From positions 1 to 64,000 of the forward strand of contig NZ_FCOU01000012.1 in the NCBI RefSeq assembly GCF_900046475.1: 64,000 nt of DNA. Reading direction: 5' to 3'. The position numbers were made by a program, and so were the translations under genes. This document shows positions 3,801-55,430 of the stretch, in pieces. The stretch is from Collinsella ihumii. Lineage in GTDB: Bacteria > Actinomycetota > Coriobacteriia > Coriobacteriales > Coriobacteriaceae. Every line of letters starts with the position of its first letter. The first letter of the stretch is position 1. The notes beneath the pieces were generated by a model, which was not told the origin of the DNA, did not search any database, and saw only the letters and a list, made by a program, of their open reading frames with translations.

Positions 3801-5504
3801 TTACTTTGCAGCGGCCTCGAGCAGCGCCTTGACCTCTTCGGCGGTGGTGCACTGGACCGCCTTGTCGGCGAGCTCCTTGGCCTCCTCGACCGTCCACTGG
3901 GAGATGGTCTTGCGGGTGCGCAGGATGCTCGGGGCGGACGTGGAGAACTCCTCCATGCCCCAGGCGATCAGCAGCGGCGTGAGCAGCGGATCGGCCGCGG
4001 CCTCGCCGCACATGCCGACCATGATGCCCTCCTTGACGCCAGCCTCGATGATGCTCTTGATAGCGCGCAGGACCGCCGGGTAGTACCAGCTGTACAGGTA
4101 GGCGATCTTGTCGTTGCCGCGGTCGGCCGCCATGGTGTAGCCGGTGAGGTCGTTGGTGCCGATCGAGAAGAAGTCGGCCTCCTTGGCCAGCAGGTCGGGA
4201 ATGTTCGCGGAGGCAGCGGTCTCGGTCATGATGCCGACCTCGATGTCCTCGTTGAACTTGTAGCCCTCTTCGCGCAGCTCGTCCTTGCAGACCTCGACGA
4301 GGTCCTTGACGGCACGGATCTCCTCGACGCAGGTGACCATGGGGACCATGATCTTGATGTCGCCGAACGCGCTTGCGCGCAGCAGGGCGCGGAGCTGGAC
4401 CTTGTACTCGTCGGCGTTGTCGAGGCAGTAGCGGATGGCGCGATAACCCATGAAGGGGTTCTCTTCCTTCACGAGCTTGAGATACGGGATCTCCTTGTCG
4501 CCGCCCACGTCGAGCGTGCGGATGATGACCGGGGCGCCCTTCAGGGCGACGGCGACCTTACGGTAGGCCTCGAACTGCTCCTCCTCGGAGGGCAGCGACT
4601 TGGCGTCCATGAACAGGAACTCAGAACGGAACAGGCCGATGGCCTCGGCGTCCTGATCGAGGGCGCCCTTGACGTCATCGGGGCTGCCGATGTTGCACGC
4701 CATGATCTTCTTGAAGCCGTCGGCGGTGATCGTCGGCTTGCCGCGGAACGCCTCGAGGGCCTGCTTCTCGGCGATGAAGTCCTCGCGACGCTGGGTGTAC
4801 TCGGCCAGGGTCTTCTCGTCGGGCTCGGCGATAACGAGGCCGCGGAAGCCGTCGACGATGGCGGTCATGCCGTTGTGCAGCGCGCCGCACGCGTTGGAGA
4901 CGGACAGGACGGCCGGGATCTCGAGGGCGCGCGCGATGATCGCGGAGTGCGAGGTGCGGCCGCCGACCTCGGTGACGATGCCCGCGACGTTCTTCTTGTC
5001 GATCGTGGCGGTCATGGACGGGGTCAGGTCGTGGATGACGATGACCGTGCCCTCGGGCAGGACGGACAGGTCGACGACCTCGCGGCCCAGCAGCTCTGCC
5101 AGGATTCCGGTGCGGATGTCGGCGATGTCGGCGGCGCGAAGGCGGAACATCTCGTCGTCCATGGACAGGAACATGTTCTCGAACATGGTGCTGGTCTCGG
5201 TCAGCGCCTGCTCTGCGCAGGTGCCGCCCTCGATGGAGGCCTTGATGGCGCCACCGAGCTCAGGGTCCTGGGCCAGCGTCACGTGGCCGTACATGATCTC
5301 GGCCTCGGCCTCGCCGACGCTCGTCTTCATGTGCTCGGCCTGGGCCTCGGTCTTCTTGCAGAAGGTTTCGAGCGCCTTGTCGAAGCGAGCCTTCTCGGCC
5401 TCGGTGTCCTCGACCGTATGCGGCGTAAACGTCAGATCGGGCTCAACGGCGACCGCGACGGTACCGATGCCGATGCCCTCAGATGCGTTAACTCCCTCGT
5501 ACAT
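3801..5504 (-). CDS. ptsI: PTS enzyme I (phosphoenolpyruvate-protein phosphotransferase)
   Basis: The general cytosolic PTS component. It takes phosphate from phosphoenolpyruvate onto a His and passes it to HPr. The product is 567 aa, the normal length. The phospho-His motif GGRTSHSAIIAR places the active His at about residue 186, and the C-terminal PEP-binding barrel (LFRSEFLFMD, then GTNDLTGYTMAADR) is intact. The ATG at 5504 has an AGGAGAGGA site; a frame extending to 5591 has none. It lies 121 nt downstream of ptsH on the same strand and 110 nt before fruK, consistent with one PTS transcript. Confidence 0.96.
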   Translation of the reverse strand: MYEGVNASEGIGIGTVAVAVEPDLTFTPHTVEDTEAEKARFDKALETFCKKTEAQAEHMKTSVGEAEAEIMYGHVTLAQDPELGGAIKASIEGGTCAEQALTETSTMFENMFLSMDDEMFRLRAADIADIRTGILAELLGREVVDLSVLPEGTVIVIHDLTPSMTATIDKKNVAGIVTEVGGRTSHSAIIARALEIPAVLSVSNACGALHNGMTAIVDGFRGLVIAEPDEKTLAEYTQRREDFIAEKQALEAFRGKPTITADGFKKIMACNIGSPDDVKGALDQDAEAIGLFRSEFLFMDAKSLPSEEEQFEAYRKVAVALKGAPVIIRTLDVGGDKEIPYLKLVKEENPFMGYRAIRYCLDNADEYKVQLRALLRASAFGDIKIMVPMVTCVEEIRAVKDLVEVCKDELREEGYKFNEDIEVGIMTETAASANIPDLLAKEADFFSIGTNDLTGYTMAADRGNDKIAYLYSWYYPAVLRAIKSIIEAGVKEGIMVGMCGEAAADPLLTPLLIAWGMEEFSTSAPSILRTRKTISQWTVEEAKELADKAVQCTTAEEVKALLEAAAK

Positions 5505-6344: not shown

Positions 6345-7235
6345 CTACGACAGGTGCTCGCTGACGACGCGCGCCACGGCTTCCGGATCGTCGGCATCCT
6401 TGACCGCCGCGCGGAACCCGTCGTCCATCAGCGCCTCGGCAACGCGCGAGAGCAGCTTGAGGTGCGTCGTTCCCGACTGGCCCTCGGGAATGAGCAGGGC
6501 GATGGCGATCCGCACGGGCACGCCGTCCATGGTCTCCCACTCCTCGGCACCCTGCGCGAGCTTCGCCACCATGACGGCGGCGCGCTGGACGGTCGCCGAC
6601 TTGGCGTGCGGGATGGCAAAGCCGTCGAGCATGCCCGTGGTGCCCTCCGCCTCGCGCTTGAGGAAGGCCGCCATGAGCTCATCGGCGTCCTGGGCGAGCC
6701 CGAGGTCGACCGCGCAGCGCGACAGCGTCGAGAGCACCTCGTCTCGCGTGGAGCAGCGAAGGCCCACCAGCACGTAGTCGGCGGAAACGACGCTCTCCGC
6801 GAACCCGGAGGGCGCCTGCGCGCGCGGGCCCGCCTCTTGCGGGGTGCGCGCAAGCTTGCGGCGGAGCTTTGAGCCGAGCGTCTCTTTACGCGAGGGCGAA
6901 CCGGAGGGCGCAGCCTGGTTACCGGAAAGCCGCGCCAGGGCGAGCGCGCCGTCGATCAGATCACCCGCCGCCTCGACGGTAAGGGGGCATGCCGCACCCG
7001 TCGAGATGAGCGGAACCCCTGCAAACCGTTCGGCCCCAGACGGGGAACCCCCGATGATGAGGGCGGCATGCGCCGAGGCGATCTCCTCGCGCGTCAACTC
7101 GTCGACCGCCCCGTCGGCAGCGTACAGCTCCGTTCTCACCGCAAGCGAACGCCCGCGCGCCGCCTCCTCGATCGAAGCGGCAGCCTGCTTTGCCCCGCGT
7201 TCAACCGAGACAACAAGATCGACCCGATGAGCCAT
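6345..7235 (-). CDS. degenerate EIIB-like / fructose-type EIIA fusion
   Basis: A 296-aa cytosolic protein. Residues about 1-100 align with the fructose EIIB fold (VDELTREEIASAHAALIIGG, then RFAGVPLI), but the phosphorylated Cys of the CPTGIAHT loop is missing; the segment reads VDLVVSVERGAKQAAA. A basic linker (about 115-145) follows. Residues about 150-296 are a fructose/mannitol/Ntr-type EIIA with the active His at about 210 in DGFAIPHAKS. The ATG at 7235 has GGGGAGGGC upstream. No EIIC follows. The EIIA probably accepts phosphate from HPr; the EIIB-like part more likely binds or regulates than transfers phosphate. That role is inference. Confidence 0.82.
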   Translation of the reverse strand: MAHRVDLVVSVERGAKQAAASIEEAARGRSLAVRTELYAADGAVDELTREEIASAHAALIIGGSPSGAERFAGVPLISTGAACPLTVEAAGDLIDGALALARLSGNQAAPSGSPSRKETLGSKLRRKLARTPQEAGPRAQAPSGFAESVVSADYVLVGLRCSTRDEVLSTLSRCAVDLGLAQDADELMAAFLKREAEGTTGMLDGFAIPHAKSATVQRAAVMVAKLAQGAEEWETMDGVPVRIAIALLIPEGQSGTTHLKLLSRVAEALMDDGFRAAVKDADDPEAVARVVSEHLS

Positions 7236-7524
7236 ACGCCCTCCCCCAACAACCGGGTGCCCGCACCCGATGCGCCCATGCGCCTCCAACCAAACAGCGT
7301 ATGCGCCAGCATACCACGCGCTGCCCCGGCTTCCATATCCCCATGATGCGCAAATCGGTGAGAACGCGCGGTGCCGGCATCCGCCGGCCCCGGTGCGGCG
7401 ACGCGCGACTGCGCTGCAGGAAACCAGCAGGTGAGCGGCACCTACAGGGGCGCCGAGCCGCCGGGTGCGCGACGCTGAAGGGGCGGCTCGGATGGATAAT
7501 TCGACATCTCCCGCTCAAAACGCG

Positions 7525-18003: not shown

Positions 18004-18133
18004 GGCGGCGGTGGGCCCCCCGGGGGTGAGCTTTTGGGGACAGTCCCTTTTGGACCGCGGCGGCGTATGTGCGCCGCCGCGGTCCAAAAGGGACTGTCCC
18101 CAAAAGCTCACCCCCGGGGGGCCCACCGCCGCC
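18004..18133. repeat. 62-bp-arm perfect inverted repeat, GGGACAGTCCC type
   Basis: Arms 18004-18065 and 18072-18133 are perfect reverse complements across a 6-nt loop, the longest hairpin in the window. The arm holds TTTTGGGGACAGTCCCTTTT, close to the core of the palindrome at 38698-38755. The element ends 10 nt before the stop codon of the minus-strand CHAP gene, so it forms the 3' end of that message. Confidence 0.92.
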
Positions 18134-39186: not shown

Positions 39187-39636
39187 GGGATCCTCCTACG
39201 CATCGACATCGATCATCTCATGTATCCCCCACGGACACGCTGACAACTATCTCAAAATTGCGGATGGATTTCCTTAGCTGGCAGCTATGGGGATGAGTTC
39301 GCGCACTCCTTGATAACAGTCGGCGCGAAAACGCATTATGATGGCCAATGATTCAGAATATTCCGGATCGGCAGGGCGGATTGCGGGAGCGGTTCCCAGA
39401 GGCGCTCTCGGGGATGAACGCCTCGCCCCCTGGGCGACCTCCCCGCCCACCCTCCTGGATGCACCCTCGCGGCGGGTGCGCCCGCAGACGCGCATGTACC
39501 ACGCGGTCTTCAGGCCCACGTCATCACACGGACAGAAAACCACCAGGAAAGGTCAACGCAGCCCTCAAAACGTATATTCCTGTCACGAAACTGTATAAAA
39601 ATCCGCTTCGGGCAAAACCCACAGGGAGAGTAGGCT
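39187..39636. other. 450-nt stretch without a gene
   Basis: Several short overlapping frames exist on both strands, but none has a ribosome site, family resemblance or steady codon use. The first ~100 nt should hold the promoter of the minus-strand HTH-like gene (TTGTCA near 39245 on that strand). Nothing else is seen. Confidence 0.5.
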
Positions 39637-39771
39637 GAGTTTGGTGCGATTTTTGAGGCTGCTTTCCCCACAGCCGCTATATCCCTCAGCATTTCCGCAG
39701 GAAACAACTGGGCAAATGCTGAGGAGTGCGGCGCATGTGGGCGAAGGGCACCGAAAAATCGCACCAAACTC
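39637..39771. repeat. 135-bp hairpin element with TTTCCGCAGGAAA apex
   Basis: GAGTTTGGTGCGATTTTT (39637-39654) and AAAAATCGCACCAAACTC (39754-39771) are perfect 18-bp inverted ends. Inner CCTCAGCATTT and AAATGCTGAGG pair, and the apex is TTTCC-GCA-GGAAA near 39692-39704. The apex resembles the TTTCCGCAGGTAACG apex of the elements at 46023 and 53309. Confidence 0.8.
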
Positions 39772-39852
39772 GATATACATGTTTTGCACGCCCCCGCGGG
39801 GAGCGGATCGAAGGCAGCCGACCCTCACCGGCGGCCTAATCGGGCGCATCCC

Positions 39853-41896: not shown

Positions 41897-42061
41897 TTCG
41901 TGATAGCATGCCGCCATTCGATAGAGGTAGCGGGCGCGAAGATGCGCGAGGTAGCCGGCAGGCGATGACCCCGCGCGAAGGCAACCCCGCCGAACTCGAC
42001 CGTCGGGCGCGGCGCGATCGGGTGGGACCGCAGGGAATACCTGCGGGACTGTCTGCACGAA
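41897..42061 (+). promoter_or_regulatory. lysine riboswitch (L box) in the lysA leader
   Basis: The leader carries the ordered conserved pieces of the lysine aptamer: GATAGAGGT (41920-41928), GCGAAGGC (41975-41982), GCCGAA (41989-41994), GTCGGG (42002-42007) and GGGACTGTC (42045-42053). TTCGTG (41897-41902) can pair with CACGAA (42056-42061) as a closing P1 stem. No terminator T-run follows; the ribosome site AAGGAGG lies 22 nt downstream, so translational control is likely. Boundaries are approximate. Confidence 0.75.
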
Positions 42062-42090
42062 TCTTGCAGGAGCGCTATCAAGGAGGGGCA

Positions 42091-45184: not shown

Positions 45185-45886
45185 ATGAACGCGCAGGAAA
45201 TCATCGACTTCATCGCGACGGCGGAGAAGAAGACGCCCGTCAAACTGTACATCCGCGAGCGCGAGGGCGCCGGCATCGACTGGGGCGCCGCGCATGCATA
45301 CGGCAACGCCGACGGGCGCATCGTGTTCGGCGATTGGAAGGATCTTGCCCCCGTCCTCGAGGCCCATGCCGACGACATCGAGCACTTTGACATCGAGAGC
45401 GACTGCCGCAACTCCGCAGTCCCGCTGCTCGACCTCAAGAACGTCAACGCGCGCATCGAGCCGGGTGCCATCATCCGAGACCGCGTCGAAATCGGCGACA
45501 ACGCCGTCATCATGATGGGCGCCATCATCAACATCGGCGCCGTCATCGGCGAGGGAACCATGATCGACATGGGCGCGGTGCTGGGAGGCCGCGCCACCGT
45601 GGGCAAGCGGTGCCACATCGGCGCCGGCACCGTGCTCGCAGGCGTCGTCGAGCCCGCAAGCGCAACGCCGGTCATCGTGGACGACGACGTCATGATCGGC
45701 GCGAACGCCGTCGTGCTCGAAGGGGTCCACGTGGGCAAAGGCGCCGTTGTCGCCGCGGGCGCCGTGTGCGTCGAGGACGTGCCCGCCGGCGCGGTGGTCG
45801 CGGGTGTCCCCGCGCGCCTCATCAAGATGCGGGATGCGCAGACGGACAGCAAGACGGGCCTCGAGGAGGGCCTGCGCAAGCTGTAG
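45185..45886 (+). CDS. dapH: tetrahydrodipicolinate N-acetyltransferase
   Basis: A 233-aa left-handed beta-helix acyltransferase. Hexapeptide repeats fill about 90-205 ([59 protein letters not shown]) and the end AGVPARLIK is typical. Length and order match DapH (about 235 aa), which uses acetyl-CoA, rather than the succinyl-dependent DapD. It would commit the pathway to acetylated intermediates, matching the deacetylase at 40467. AAGGAAGGAG precedes the ATG. It lies 103 nt after dapB. Confidence 0.92.
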
Positions 45887-45930
45887 CGACTGGGCGCGAC
45901 CGCACCCCAGTGGAGGCTCGCGAAGATAGG

Positions 45931-46011
45931 TCATTTGGGGACGGGTTCGTTCCAGCCCATCGGCGGCCCACGCGGCCGCCGATGGGCTGGAACGAACCCG
46001 TCCCCAAATGA
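45931..46011. repeat. 38-bp-arm perfect inverted repeat, GGGACGGGTTCGTTCC type
   Basis: Arms 45931-45968 and 45974-46011 pair perfectly across a 5-nt loop. The outer TTTGGGGACGGGTTCGTTCC matches the element at 112-165. It lies 44 nt past the dapH stop and 11 nt before the separate 200-bp element at 46023. Confidence 0.92.
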
Positions 46012-46022
46012 GCCAACCTTCT

Positions 46023-46221
46023 AGCGGAGGTTCCGGAACCCAGAGGTTCTGAATAATCGAGCTTTTGAGCGGGTGGATTTCGAACCAGCTCAAAAGGGCG
46101 CCTTCGGAGCCACCGTTTCCGCAGGTAACGGCCGAGAGACAGATGCGCTTTTTCGAGCGTTCTGAAACGAGTCGCTCATAACCTCGATTTTTCAGCACTT
46201 CTGGGCTCTGGAACCTCCACG
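46023..46221. repeat. about 200-bp hairpin element with conserved TTTCCGCAGGTAACG apex
   Basis: GCGGAGGTTCC near the left end faces GGAACCTCCAC at the right. CTGAATAATCGAGCTTTTGAGCG faces a right arm that reads CGCTCATAACCTCGATTTTTCAG, so the long stem holds despite base changes. GTTTCCGCAGGTAACG lies at 46115-46130, at the exact midpoint. A second copy is 53309-53509. It runs up to the -10 (TATAAT, 46240) of the next gene. Nothing codes here. Confidence 0.82.
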
Positions 46222-46239
46222 GGAGCTGCAAACGTTCGC

Positions 46240-46245
46240 TATAAT
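46240..46245 (+). promoter_or_regulatory. -10 element of the MBL-fold gene
   Basis: A perfect TATAAT 41 nt upstream of the ATG. The expected -35 position falls at the right end of the hairpin element 46023-46221, and no good -35 is seen there. Confidence 0.45.
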
Positions 46246-46286
46246 CCCCTCTCGGAAAAAACGAACCGACCGTAGGAGGGGCATCC

Positions 46287-47087
46287 ATGGAACTCACCCT
46301 GCTGGGAACGGGCAACGCGCTCGTCACCGAATGCTATAACACCTGCTTTGTCATCACGGACGGCACGAAGCGCTTCCTGGTCGACGGCGGAGGCGGCAAC
46401 GGCGTGCTCGTCCAGCTCAAGCGCGCGGACATCGACTGGCACGACATCCACGAGATCTTCGTGACCCACAAGCACATCGACCATATCGTCGGCATCGTGT
46501 GGCTCATCCGCCTCATCTGCCAGAACATGGCGAAAGGCGCCTACGAGGGCGATGTCACCATCTACGGGCACGACGAGGTACTCATCATCGTTCGCAGCAT
46601 CGCCGACATGCTTCTGCAGCCCAAGCAGACGCGCTTCATCGACGATCGCGTCCACCTCGTCACCGTCGAAGACGGCGAGACGCGCACGATCATCGGCCAC
46701 GAGGTCACGTTCTTCGATATCCAATCGACCAAGGCCAAGCAGTTCGGCTTCACCATGGACATGGGCGACGGCCGCAAGCTCACCTGCTGCGGAGACGAGC
46801 CGTACAACGAATGCGAGCGCGCCTATGCGGAAGACAGCACCTGGCTGCTTCATGAGGCCTTCTGCCTGCACGGCCAGGCGGACATCTTCTCGCCCTATGA
46901 AAAGCACCACTCCACCGTCAAGGACGCCTGCGAGCTCGCCGAGGAGCTCGGTGCAGAAAACCTCGTGCTCTACCATACCGAGGACCGCAACATCGCGCGC
47001 CGCAAAGAACTCTACGCCGCCGAGGGGTCTGCGTACTATCGCGGAAATCTCTACATCCCCGACGATCTTGAGACGATTGCACTGTAG
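46287..47087 (+). CDS. metallo-beta-lactamase-fold hydrolase, RNase Z-like
   Basis: A 266-aa cytosolic MBL-fold protein. MELTLLGTGNALVTECYNTC opens like RNase Z/ElaC, and the metal motif THKHIDH (His61, His63, Asp65, His66) is intact; later ligands are in CGDEPYNE and VLYHTED. It lacks the long exosite arm of true tRNase Z, so a phosphodiesterase or unknown hydrolase is as likely. GTAGGAGGGG precedes the ATG. Single gene with its own terminator. Confidence 0.82.
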   Translation: MELTLLGTGNALVTECYNTCFVITDGTKRFLVDGGGGNGVLVQLKRADIDWHDIHEIFVTHKHIDHIVGIVWLIRLICQNMAKGAYEGDVTIYGHDEVLIIVRSIADMLLQPKQTRFIDDRVHLVTVEDGETRTIIGHEVTFFDIQSTKAKQFGFTMDMGDGRKLTCCGDEPYNECERAYAEDSTWLLHEAFCLHGQADIFSPYEKHHSTVKDACELAEELGAENLVLYHTEDRNIARRKELYAAEGSAYYRGNLYIPDDLETIAL

Positions 47088-51800: not shown

Positions 51801-53144
51801 TTATTGCTCGTCGGATGCGCGCAGGGAGTCCACCAAACCGGATGCCACGTCAGACATGCGATCGATCGTCGCCACGCGGGCAAGCGCCTTGAACACGTCG
51901 GTTACGAAGGCGCGCTGCTCGGGTGCCAGGGAAGACACCGCCTCTTTCATGGCGGGCAGGCTCGTGCGCCAGTTCTCACGGATATCGGCGAAGCGCGTGG
52001 CCCCGGTCACGCTCAGCACCTGGAACAGCGTCGCGATGAACTCCCCGCGCTCCTCGGGGGTGAACCGGCGCATCCACGCGGCAAGCGTCGAGCCGAAGTA
52101 GCGCGAGCTCGCCGACAGGCCATCTGCCTGCTTGAATTCGCAGCTCTCGACCTCCCACAGAAACGGGTTGTGCTGCAGCACGGAGATCCCGCCGCTCTCG
52201 ACGACGGTGAACTCATGGCGCTCGTCCATGATGAGGCCGATGATCGAGGATTTGGGCACGTTCTTCTCGACGCGATCACGGATGCGCGCATACCCTTCGC
52301 CCTCGAGAAACGAATCGTCGAAGCCGGGGCCGTCGTGGGAAAAGACGCGCACGATCCGCCGCTGGATATCTTCGGGAGCCGAGGCCGCGGCATAGGTCGC
52401 AAGGTTACCGCCCTTGGAATGGCCGCCGAGGTAGATGGGGCCGGTCAACTGCGGTGCCACGCGCTCAAGATACCGCTGCGCCTCGCACTGCGAGGGCACC
52501 GGGAGCTGCGAGGCCATGTTGAAGTCCTCGCGCCACCCGACCAGCGTGGAGTCCGTACCCCGAAACGCGAGGTAGGCGCTGCCGTCGGGCAGCATGAACG
52601 TCATGGCGGCGAACTGCTCGGAGGTCGCGCGCTCGGTCTTGTAGGCGAAATGGCACAGGTGTGTATCGCGAAAGCGCGGGCTCGCGCACACGGCGAACAG
52701 CAGCTCGCGGCTGGACTCGGGGTCCCAGCTCGTACCGAACATCGACGAGAAATCCTCAGCGCGCAACAGCTCGTGGAGTCCGATGCCCTCGGGCATGCGC
52801 GCGCAACGCAGTTGAGAGCTCAAGCGAAAGTACGACAGCCACGAGAACACGAGGCTGTCGAGGGCGTTCAGCGGCCGCCTGGAAAACGGGTCGCGAACAG
52901 ACTGCGCGTAGGTCAAGAAGTTGTCCGCGCGCTTTGACGAGGGGGTGGGCTGAGCGCTTGTGTCGCCCTCGGCATGGCGCGGCGAAAGCGACGGCCTGCT
53001 CAGGGGGATCTTCTCAGCAAGCGTGCCGAGCACGCCGGAACCTGCCTTCTCATCCGTAGGCATCGCCGCGCCATCGGGCAGGCCTGCGCCCGTCGGCTTC
53101 GCAAGCGAGACGACGCGTCGCGCGTCTTTTCCGGCATGCATCAT
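51801..53144 (-). CDS. Mbeg1-like alpha/beta hydrolase (DUF2974)
   Basis: A 447-aa protein. The N-terminal ~75 residues are low-complexity. The hydrolase part has DSLVFSWLSYFRL, AFRGTDSTLVGWREDFNM and the nucleophile elbow YLGGHSKGGNLAT (Ser243), with VFSHDGPGF following, as in DUF2974 proteins annotated Mbeg1-like. Probable lipase or esterase of unknown substrate. No signal peptide is seen. Start: paired ATGs at 53144 with TGAGGGG upstream. Confidence 0.82.
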   Translation of the reverse strand: MMHAGKDARRVVSLAKPTGAGLPDGAAMPTDEKAGSGVLGTLAEKIPLSRPSLSPRHAEGDTSAQPTPSSKRADNFLTYAQSVRDPFSRRPLNALDSLVFSWLSYFRLSSQLRCARMPEGIGLHELLRAEDFSSMFGTSWDPESSRELLFAVCASPRFRDTHLCHFAYKTERATSEQFAAMTFMLPDGSAYLAFRGTDSTLVGWREDFNMASQLPVPSQCEAQRYLERVAPQLTGPIYLGGHSKGGNLATYAAASAPEDIQRRIVRVFSHDGPGFDDSFLEGEGYARIRDRVEKNVPKSSIIGLIMDERHEFTVVESGGISVLQHNPFLWEVESCEFKQADGLSASSRYFGSTLAAWMRRFTPEERGEFIATLFQVLSVTGATRFADIRENWRTSLPAMKEAVSSLAPEQRAFVTDVFKALARVATIDRMSDVASGLVDSLRASDEQ

Positions 53145-53308: not shown

Positions 53309-53509
53309 CAGCGGAGGTTCCAGCGCTGACTTTCACTGAAAAATCGACGTTTTGAGCGGGTGGTTTTCGAACCCGTCTGAGAGGGCATCTTCAGAGGTAA
53401 CGTTTCCGCAGGTAACGACCGCACGACGAGTTCGCATTTCCGGGCGCTTGAAATCCACCCACTCAAAACGTTGAATTTTCAGCAACTCTGAGCTCCGGAA
53501 CCTCCGCTG
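53309..53509. repeat. about 200-bp hairpin element, second copy of 46023-46221
   Basis: Perfect 13-bp ends CAGCGGAGGTTCC (53309-53321) and GGAACCTCCGCTG (53497-53509). Inside, TGAAAAATCGACGTTTTGAGCG faces CACTCAAAACGTTGAATTTTCA. GTTTCCGCAGGTAACG at 53402-53417 sits at the midpoint, identical to the other copy. It fills the centre of the 513-nt gap 53145-53657; the rest of that gap shows no gene. Confidence 0.88.
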
Positions 53510-53657: not shown

Positions 53658-55430
53658 CTAACCAAGCACAATCCACACAGAAGCGTCTTGGCCCAGCGCA
53701 CCCGTAAGCGGCTCGGACGATACGAGCACCTCGCCTTCGGGCAAGGCGAGCTCATGCGCACCAAAGTTGGTGATGCTCACGAGCGTCTTGCCACCGGCCG
53801 CGGGGCGGGCATAAGCGATCACCTCGCGCGCCTGCTCGGCAGAAATCCCCAACTCGCCTGCTCCCCACCAGGTCAGTGAGGTATCGCCCGTAGACGTGAG
53901 CAGCTCATGGCGCAGTGCGAGGATTCGGCGGTATAGGTTGAGCATCGAGCCGGGCTCGGCATCCAGGCGATCCACCGCGTGCTCAACGAACCACAACGGC
54001 TGCGGCAGGTGCGGGGCAGCCGTCTTGTCCGCGCGCGCCACACCCGTAGCCGGCGCGGAAAACCCGAAACTCGCCGTATCCCCGTCACCGAAGGAGCCGT
54101 CCCACGCAGCCGGCGCCGGCATGTCGGAAGCGACCCAGGGCAGCGGCACGCGGCAGCCATCGCGCCCCTTCAGCGCATCCCCGTGGCAGGTCCGGCGCGC
54201 CTGCGGATCCTCCAGACGATCCCACGGGATGTTCGCAACCTCGAACAGGCCCAGCTCCTCGCCCTGGTAGATGTAGGCTGAGCCCGGCAGCGCCATCTCC
54301 ATGAGCAGCGCGGCGCGAGCGCGCTTGGTGCCTAGCGCGCGATCCTCGGTATAGGTCGCCCCGTCGCGCAGCAGCCAGTCGTTGACGAACTGATGGTGCA
54401 CCTTTGCCTTCACCTGCGGCAAGCCGTAGCGCGTCGCATGGCGCGGCACGTCGTGATTGGAAAGCACCCACGTACTCGTGGAGCCCGAATCCTCCGCGCA
54501 AGCCAGGCCCTCCACAATAGCGCGACGGAAGTCGGCGGCGTACCAGTCCGCCTTGGCGAACTCGAAGTTGAACACCTGACCGAGCTCATCGGGCGAGGCG
54601 TAGAGGCGCTGGTGATCGGGTGTCACCCACGCCTCGGCGACGGCGAAGCGCGGCGGCTCGTATTCGTTGAAGATGCGGCGCCACAAGCGGTAGATCTCAT
54701 GGACCTCGGGGCGGTCCCATAAGGGATTGTCCGCGTTGCCGCTCCCCTGCTTAGGCGCCTGGTCGAGCTCGTCGAGCGGACGGCTCGTCAGGTCCTTCGC
54801 TAGGGCGTGCGCCACATCCACGCGGAACCCGTCGACGCCGCGGTCGCACCAAAAGCGCAGCGTGCGCTCGAACTCCTCGCGCACGTCGGGATGCTGCCAG
54901 TTAAGATCGGGCTGCTCGGCGGCAAACAGATGCAGGTACCATTCGCCGTCCTCGACGCGCTCCCACGCCGAGCCGCCGAAACACGACATCCAGCCGTTCG
55001 GGGGAAGCTCACCGTGCTCCCCGCGGCCAGGCCGGAAGATGTAGCGTTCGCGCTCGGACGAGCCGGGGCCCGCGGCGAGCGCCGCCTGGAAGAAACGGTG
55101 CTTGTTTGAGGTGTGGTTGGGCACGATGTCCACGATCACGCGGATGTCGTGGGCATGCGCGGCGGCGATAAGCCCATCGAAATCGTCGAGCGTGCCCAGG
55201 CGCGGGTCGACCGCGCGGTAATCGATGACGTCGTACCCGCCGTCGGCGAGCTCGGAAGGATAGAACGGTGAGAGCCAGATGGCATCGATGCCGAGTTCGG
55301 CGAGGTAATCGATCCCGGCGGTCACCCCGCGGATATCGCCCAAGCCGTCGCCGTCGGCGTCGCGGAAACTGCGCGGATACACCTGGTACACGACAGCCTG
55401 CTTCCACCATTCGATTGCGTTGATCGCCAT
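53658..55430 (-). CDS. GH13 alpha-glucosidase
   Basis: A 590-aa cytosolic glycoside hydrolase family 13 enzyme of the oligo-1,6-glucosidase/alpha-glucosidase type. It starts WWKQAVVYQVYPRSF. Catalytic residues are Asp205 in GFRVDVAHAL, Glu266 in VAEAWVT and Asp327 in LSNHDVPR. It lacks a signal peptide, so it would split imported maltodextrins, isomaltose or sucrose-type sugars. GGGAGG precedes the ATG. A perfect 18-bp-arm dyad lies 36 nt upstream (55467-55506). Confidence 0.92.
   Translation of the reverse strand: MAINAIEWWKQAVVYQVYPRSFRDADGDGLGDIRGVTAGIDYLAELGIDAIWLSPFYPSELADGGYDVIDYRAVDPRLGTLDDFDGLIAAAHAHDIRVIVDIVPNHTSNKHRFFQAALAAGPGSSERERYIFRPGRGEHGELPPNGWMSCFGGSAWERVEDGEWYLHLFAAEQPDLNWQHPDVREEFERTLRFWCDRGVDGFRVDVAHALAKDLTSRPLDELDQAPKQGSGNADNPLWDRPEVHEIYRLWRRIFNEYEPPRFAVAEAWVTPDHQRLYASPDELGQVFNFEFAKADWYAADFRRAIVEGLACAEDSGSTSTWVLSNHDVPRHATRYGLPQVKAKVHHQFVNDWLLRDGATYTEDRALGTKRARAALLMEMALPGSAYIYQGEELGLFEVANIPWDRLEDPQARRTCHGDALKGRDGCRVPLPWVASDMPAPAAWDGSFGDGDTASFGFSAPATGVARADKTAAPHLPQPLWFVEHAVDRLDAEPGSMLNLYRRILALRHELLTSTGDTSLTWWGAGELGISAEQAREVIAYARPAAGGKTLVSITNFGAHELALPEGEVLVSSEPLTGALGQDASVWIVLG

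Follow-up and report, generated by a model that had tools for sequence, protein, structure and literature searches.

A palindromic intergenic repeat family, probably MITE-like, with a conserved apex in Collinsella ihumii

The genome of Collinsella ihumii carries a set of 201-bp hairpins, designated family A, which appears to be a previously undescribed family among the palindromic MITE-like intergenic repeats. Two copies lie in the window, by which we mean the whole stretch of 64,000 nucleotides analysed here (contig NZ_FCOU01000012.1, assembly GCF_900046475.1). Family A is very probably a repeat family of DNA. As to the complete reading, we incline, without firm conviction, to a palindromic DNA repeat of the MITE-like, non-autonomous kind, in which template switching largely keeps the arms matched and the tip may be recognised by an order-wide protein.

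The initial annotation had reported two long imperfect hairpins in the window, and both were present at the claimed positions (Table 1); their ends were defined by terminal-repeat matching. The two copies were 74% identical across 176 nt. As claimed, GTTTCCGCAGGTAACG was identical in both and exactly central (midpoint offset 0.0 in each), and the ends were inverted repeats; across the aligned copies of the family, pairs 3–11 had 114 Watson-Crick and 4 G-T of 126 cells. The folding z-scores were -8.1 for copy 1 and -8.3 for copy 2, equalled by none of 200 shuffles, and the other strand of copy 1 was nearly equal in folding (-102 vs -106 kcal/mol). Copy 1 lies in the spacer between dapD, which ends at 45886, and an MBL-fold gene, which starts at 46287 (both named from the translations by eye), and copy 2 is flanked by two minus-strand genes (51801–53144 and 53658–55430). 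A short GGGGACG-type hairpin adjoins copy 1, and hairpins of this type were located within 200 bp of 2 of the 16 family A copies described below. Elsewhere the window contains a lysine riboswitch (Rfam RF00168) at 41914–42085, upstream of a gene named by eye as lysA-like, and a perfect 62-bp inverted repeat with a 6-nt spacer at 18004–18133.

Table 1. Positions of the hairpins and their parts in the window
Feature	Position	Strand	Remarks
Family A copy 1	46022..46222	+ (strand by apex)	201 bp
Copy 1 left terminal inverted repeat	46024..46032	+	AGxGGAGGxT type; pairs 3-11; partner 46212-46220
Copy 1 right terminal inverted repeat	46212..46220	+	pairs 3-11
Copy 1 conserved stem, left arm	46049..46074	+	family consensus CTGAAAAATCGACGTTGTGGACGGCT; pairs 28-53
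Copy 1 conserved stem, right arm	46170..46195	+	pairs 28-53
Copy 1 apex GTTTCCGCAGGTAACG	46115..46130	+	element centre 46122
Family A copy 2	53309..53509	+	201 bp
Copy 2 conserved stem, left arm	53336..53361	+	
Copy 2 conserved stem, right arm	53457..53482	+	
Copy 2 apex	53402..53417	+	same sequence as copy 1 apex
Short GGGGACG-type hairpin	45931..46011	.	adjoins copy 1; separate repeat, outside family A
Family B copy	39637..39771	+	135-bp hairpin; whole match about 39574-39795

Further copies, on which the idea of a family depended, were found in the genome. A DNA search gave 14 copies, 67–75% identical to copy 1, and a covariance model built on the 147-nt core of family A, designated R1, added those at C12:220236 and C7:79727. 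Fifteen of these 16 good copies scored at least 115 bits and one 79 bits, and R1 matched two diverged copies on contig C10 beyond them. Another R1 match, C3:395152, turned out to be a copy of family B, a second family described below. The core was 147 nt in 15 of the 16 good copies and 146 nt in one, and the whole element was 201 nt in 13 of the 14 aligned copies, in all of which the apex was central, and 200 nt in the other. When the arm pattern CTGAAAAATCGACGTT was searched at up to 2 mismatches, its 32 matches all fell within known family A copies, with no lone arm; this search found no longer element sharing the inner arms in the 35-contig draft genome. Inward from the terminal repeats (pairs 3–11) come 16 positions that vary and pair poorly, then the best stem (pairs 28–53), then an inner part in which pairs and mismatches are mixed. 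Mismatches were retained in most copies at pair 65 (C·C, 11/13), pair 67 (G·G, 10/14), pair 76 (G·G, 13/14) and pair 97 (T·T, 14/14). At the apex, GTTTCCGCAGGT was unchanged in all 14 aligned copies, and GTTTCCGCAGGTNNC, at zero mismatches, matched only these 14 copies in the genome. The retained mismatches and the apex make the element asymmetric.

According to mechanical gene calls, 14 of the 16 copies are free of any overlap greater than 40 nt with a predicted frame. Of the two exceptions, one overlaps a weak frame of 68 residues and the other the beginning of a frame for an IS3-type transposase. The copy over the transposase start (rve + HTH_21) is C12:220236 (L179, 4910–5110). By the same calls, nine copies lie between tandem genes, five between convergent genes and one, C3:450547, between divergent genes, with one case unclear; relative to the tandem neighbours, five copies have the same and four the opposite orientation (n = 9), showing no bias. 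At locus L184, two family A copies in direct orientation (5021–5221 and 7073–7273) flank a CAP/SLH surface-protein gene, and the homology of this pair runs about 50 bp past each element. Genes for SLH-domain surface proteins also stand beside several A, B or A-like copies (L181, L184, L263, L268 and L114, in three genomes), a neighbourhood that may merely mirror how common such proteins are.

The observation that the arms differ and still pair holds across the 14 aligned copies, in which both sides had changed at 38 of 99 pairs against 27.7 in shuffles, a number as high in 1 of 500 shuffles. The covariation score was 0.168 vs 0.136 in shuffles (reached by 0/500), the proportion of paired cells was 72.6% vs 71.1% (5/500), and further pair types were not raised (79 vs 81.4; 403/500), all of which must be read knowing that relatedness alone is able to exceed such shuffles. 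Slid structures paired 38–42% of the cells, vs 72.6% for the true structure. When the right arms were permuted among 11 non-redundant copies (the near-duplicates L008, L009 and L014 were dropped), P was 0.004 for pairs 3–99, 0.009 for pairs 3–53, 0.0004 for pairs 28–53 and 0.099 for pairs 54–99; at pairs 28–53, the paired fraction was 0.92 with the own arm vs 0.83 in the permutations. Own arms were 67.2% paired vs 63.2% between copies, and the own arm was the best partner in 3 of 14 copies. The covariation of family A is real yet moderate.

A census of contig C12, a further 60 kb and nine copy regions revealed further long-hairpin families. One of them, family B, forms a hairpin of 135 bp: when mostly-gap columns are left out, 19 of 20 aligned copies occupy 135 columns and one 134, and twelve reverse-strand matches measure 135 nt directly. 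The arms of family B are of two types, distinguished at 6 of 8 adjacent bases, and both arms carry the matching type in all 20 copies, 13 of one type and 7 of the other; these numbers, like those of the inversions below, count copies and not events, and the two types may trace to one inherited change. Single-base departures from the types occur. In 6 of the 20 copies, found within both arm types, the apex is inverted relative to its flanks. Another family of long hairpins, the third, has an apex of the TTTTTCGCCC type and is located at C12:154683 and 308670. In a comparison of L239 with L269, a family B copy adjoins an Abi-like gene (PF07751), which is shared with genome G029 at 98% protein identity.

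In the available parts of the literature, template switching between inverted repeats is described as causing homogenisation of arms, inversion of the spacer and multi-nucleotide change (PMC8604942), and template-switch mutation at quasipalindromes is also treated in PMC7202029 and PMC8794818. As far as these texts go, our families resemble such quasipalindromes in homogenised arms, inverted spacer and multi-nucleotide changes, and differ in that those were single loci or genes, whereas whole dispersed repeat families are concerned here. A DNA polymerase that switches template between the arms would homogenise them and would sometimes invert the centre. The marks of this process are seen in family B, from which we infer it for family A; we lean modestly towards template switching as the main reason why the family A arms stay matched, a leaning that we reduced somewhat since a single inherited change may account for the two arm types of family B. 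The retained mismatches of family A count against template switching, because frequent switching should erase them, and with this reservation they would show either limits to conversion or selection for asymmetry. The compensating stem changes described by the initial annotation are present as a pattern, but selection is not required as their cause, as family B shows template-switch marks.

The invariant apex was a sound observation, but the motif is exclusive neither to the element nor to hairpins. In 395 genomes of the order, GTTTYCGCAGGTAR occurred at 588 sites and the reversed pattern at 63 (about 9-fold); the counts were 112 vs 19 in the own family (65 genomes), 347 vs 18 in a second family (140 genomes) and 129 vs 26 in the rest of the order (190 genomes). 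Outside the order, 361 genomes of the phylum gave 44 vs 21 as counted by hand. Twenty-two of 28 examined sites in the second family are located between predicted genes, and none of the three sites that the own genome has beyond its family A copies possesses a strong enclosing stem. With the pattern GC[AT]GGTA[AG], outer-arm pairing reached 60% or more at 17 of 293 sites (eleven in the own genome, six in other Coriobacteriia) and at none of the 776 sites given by six control patterns, a contrast that shrank to 27/293 vs 24/776 at the laxer level of 50% outer pairing. Long hairpins enclosed 2 of 29 GTTTYCGCAGGTAR sites; an ungapped-stem test detected a strong enclosing stem at 8 of 48 motif sites, with 40 lacking one, vs 2 of 216 controls, and a duplex-energy test for stems round the motif was negative (29 sites, 569 controls). 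An unbiased survey of long hairpins found the motif in 8 of 123 centres, with GGTAGA in 8 vs 1.5 expected and ACCTGC in 14 vs 4.6; this centre excess was not significant once corrected over all 6-mers. GTTTYCGCAGGTAR is therefore an order-wide sequence that, at the sites examined, lies mostly outside hairpins and also occurs at hairpin tips in the Collinsella group. Motif and hairpin may be joined in this group only.

Over-representation throughout the order points to a conserved DNA-binding or DNA-cutting protein that would probably recognise the apex motif, on a hairpin or off it, and such recognition may give family A its spread or its upkeep. Binding of the apex by a protein present order-wide is, in our estimate, slightly less likely than not. 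A stronger proposal takes GTTTYCGCAGGTAR as the recognition site of an order-conserved DNA enzyme, with Collinsella hairpin tips being processed and spread by it and template switching keeping the arms complementary, so that hairpins with unrelated arms would share one tip; we consider this composite rather unlikely. A literature search with spellings of GTTTYCGCAGGTAR gave nothing relevant among the matches listed, the only one being an unrelated-looking match, available in part, on Pseudomonas oprD. CTACCTGCGATTATGG was found beside a transposase fragment in L192 that we take to be IS1182-like. As for IS1182 ends as a source of the apex, a PF05598 search gave no match in the genome, missing even the L192 fragment, and so had low power.

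Family A consists of many short, gene-free copies with terminal inverted repeats, the features by which MITEs are recognised. These features, together with the fixed length, would suit a classical MITE that a DDE transposase mobilises by way of its AGxGGAGG ends. However, no consistent target-site duplication was seen, a 4-bp end match being present in just 2 of 14 copies when the flanks were inspected by eye, and no longer element sharing the inner arms turned up in the draft genome. No transposase or autonomous partner of family A was detected by the inner-arm search in the draft genome. This explanation is accordingly improbable in our judgement; the broader proposition, that a transposase of any kind actively copies family A, is possible but somewhat doubtful.

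A bidirectional terminator or 3'-end stabiliser, composed of an A-tract, a long stem and a T-tract on both strands after genes, is suggested by the consensus stem, which is bordered by AAAAATCG...CGATTTTT, and by the location of 14 of 16 copies between tandem or convergent genes as called mechanically. Against it, a simple scan, which covers loops of up to 8 nt only, found no terminator in the element, copy C3:450547 sits between divergent genes, and a terminator would need neither a conserved apex nor a conserved length. We regard this role as unlikely, more so than movement by a DDE transposase.

Of the two readings put forward by the initial annotation, one is a functional structured RNA and the other a DNA hairpin that an enzyme recognises. 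Selection on a single RNA strand should leave that strand more tolerant of G·U than of A·C. Counts over the columns that are mostly paired gave 39 G·T cells (at 22 positions) and 55 A·C cells (at 24 positions) in family A, and 33 of each in family B, at 13 and 19 positions; overall, A·C was not rarer than G·T in either family. The six apex pairs of family A (94–99) go the opposite way, with 8 G·T vs 0 A·C. This local bias, the conserved apex and retained mismatches, the strong folding of both window copies and a covariation that beats shuffles in three of five measures (0–1/500), and in one more at 5/500, would be expected of a small RNA or cis element whose apical loop is conserved and whose stems are compensated. 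On the other side stand the overall A·C and G·T counts, the unbiased orientation to genes, the nearly equal folding of the opposite strand, and the spacers of the two window copies, which have no promoter-like site by the sigma-70 consensus alone. The element also lacks an Rfam family: at the gathering score, Rfam matches in the whole window were only the lysine riboswitch and a tRNA elsewhere, with none on the family A hairpins, and all 10 weak matches of a permissive search of 45800–46400 fell on the neighbouring perfect hairpin at 45931–46010. On balance, the pairing appears to act at the DNA level. A functional structured RNA is not supported and must be counted as quite improbable; the DNA-hairpin half of the proposal fits the results, and no enzyme has been identified for it. 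As a DNA repeat, the family A hairpin would work in an extruded or single-stranded form.

Movement as a REP or REPIN by a RAYT (Y1 transposase) is very improbable, because, although the genome has two Y1_Tnp matches, one within a 345-residue open frame, and short REP-like hairpins, one beside copy 1, the repeats flanking the L193 Y1_Tnp match are of the GGGGACGTACC type and not family A, family A exceeds the 20–40 bp of a REP at least fivefold in length, and the GGGGACGGG repeat is near just 2 of the 16 copies. By eye, family A flanks neither Y1_Tnp match within the 3.3-kb stretches inspected, and at 201 bp it has no constant GTAG or CGTC tag as a REP would. A retron origin was rejected, since no PF00078 reverse transcriptase match was present in the genome at E 0.001 in a search that gave matches in 3 of 14 control genomes. 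Plasmids and phages were likewise set aside as a source, with no match for one family A copy with its flanks. A viral origin of the arms was discarded as well: viral contigs contained no exact match to the arm pattern, and at their 23 matches to the apex 16-mer the outer-arm positions were paired at just 0.30–0.42 in every case.

Judged by DapA, the nearest named relatives are Collinsella tanakaei ET10, ET30 and An791 at 80–82% protein identity, and an uncultured Collinsella reaches 83%. Among the 43 genomes of the genus searched (under stricter filters), strong R1 matches were obtained in the own genome only. Nine other genomes of the genus gave R1 scores of 28–52 bits. Such scores partly reflect any long hairpin, and R1 gave an unrelated perfect hairpin 38.6 bits; the weak matches elsewhere, including the one in L083 that follows dapD (27 bits), were therefore left out of the evidence. 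A sequence-only profile, searched against 209 non-own loci (2.0 Mb), some of them fetched by R1, detected diverged family A relatives in G035, G040 and G041 (E 1e-5 to 3e-4) and in G029 (E 1e-3). Family B, excluding matches to query positions 292–323, which belong to a neighbouring REP, was present in G029, G039, G019, G040 and G041, and in G052 of another genus.

In six relatives (L019, L020, L021, L022, L030 and L049), the stretch after dapD contains other hairpins or none, and R1 had no match there; the hairpins of L021 were considered as family A homologues and rejected, their best E being 0.15. Next to the DeoR gene that adjoins one own family A copy (L013), species G039 has family B in that place. 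These differences are compatible with gain and loss of hairpins. No empty site was found at the nucleotide level among these distant relatives, in which loss and gain look alike. A segment shared with G052, taken as a candidate empty site, proved to have a family B copy in both genomes. The own genome and G052 share segments at 93.6–97.7% DNA identity (L300/L301 vs L298), and in one of the two a 6.6-kb gene block, metabolic-looking from its translations by eye, lies next to the shared family B copy.

ERIC is a palindromic sequence, and we know of no order-wide apex motif for ERIC/IRU or RU-2. ERIC/IRU (RU-1, 127 bp) and RU-2 (168 bp) of the enterobacteria are presented in the accessible parts of PMC2759123 and PMC2229807 as intergenic, multi-copy, MITE-like small mobile sequences. 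By resemblance, and to the extent of those texts, family A is like them in being intergenic, multi-copy and MITE-like, and differs in sequence, host phylum and length. GTAG/CGTC-tagged REPs are described, in the available text of PMC3733652, as palindromic intergenic repeats of 20–40 bp with stems of 5–13 bp and complementary stem changes. On that description family A is likewise palindromic and intergenic with complementary stem changes, but it forms a single 201-bp unit whose asymmetric apex is fixed. The GGGGACG hairpin beside copy 1 resembles, in our own comparison, a REP of the CGTC kind (PMC3733652). The main text of that paper, as far as it was available, does not mention Eggerthella, Olsenella, Slackia or Actinobacteria. 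Literature searches on MITEs or palindromic repeats in Collinsella and Coriobacteria showed neither family A nor family B among the matches listed.

Paired arms with compensated changes are usually taken as proof of a functional RNA. Families A and B show this pattern too but lack an overall RNA signature, and family B adds the marks of template switching. The two families are natural material for telling mutation from selection in the evolution of hairpins, and the order-wide tip motif offers a handle on the protein behind intergenic repeats in these poorly studied gut bacteria.
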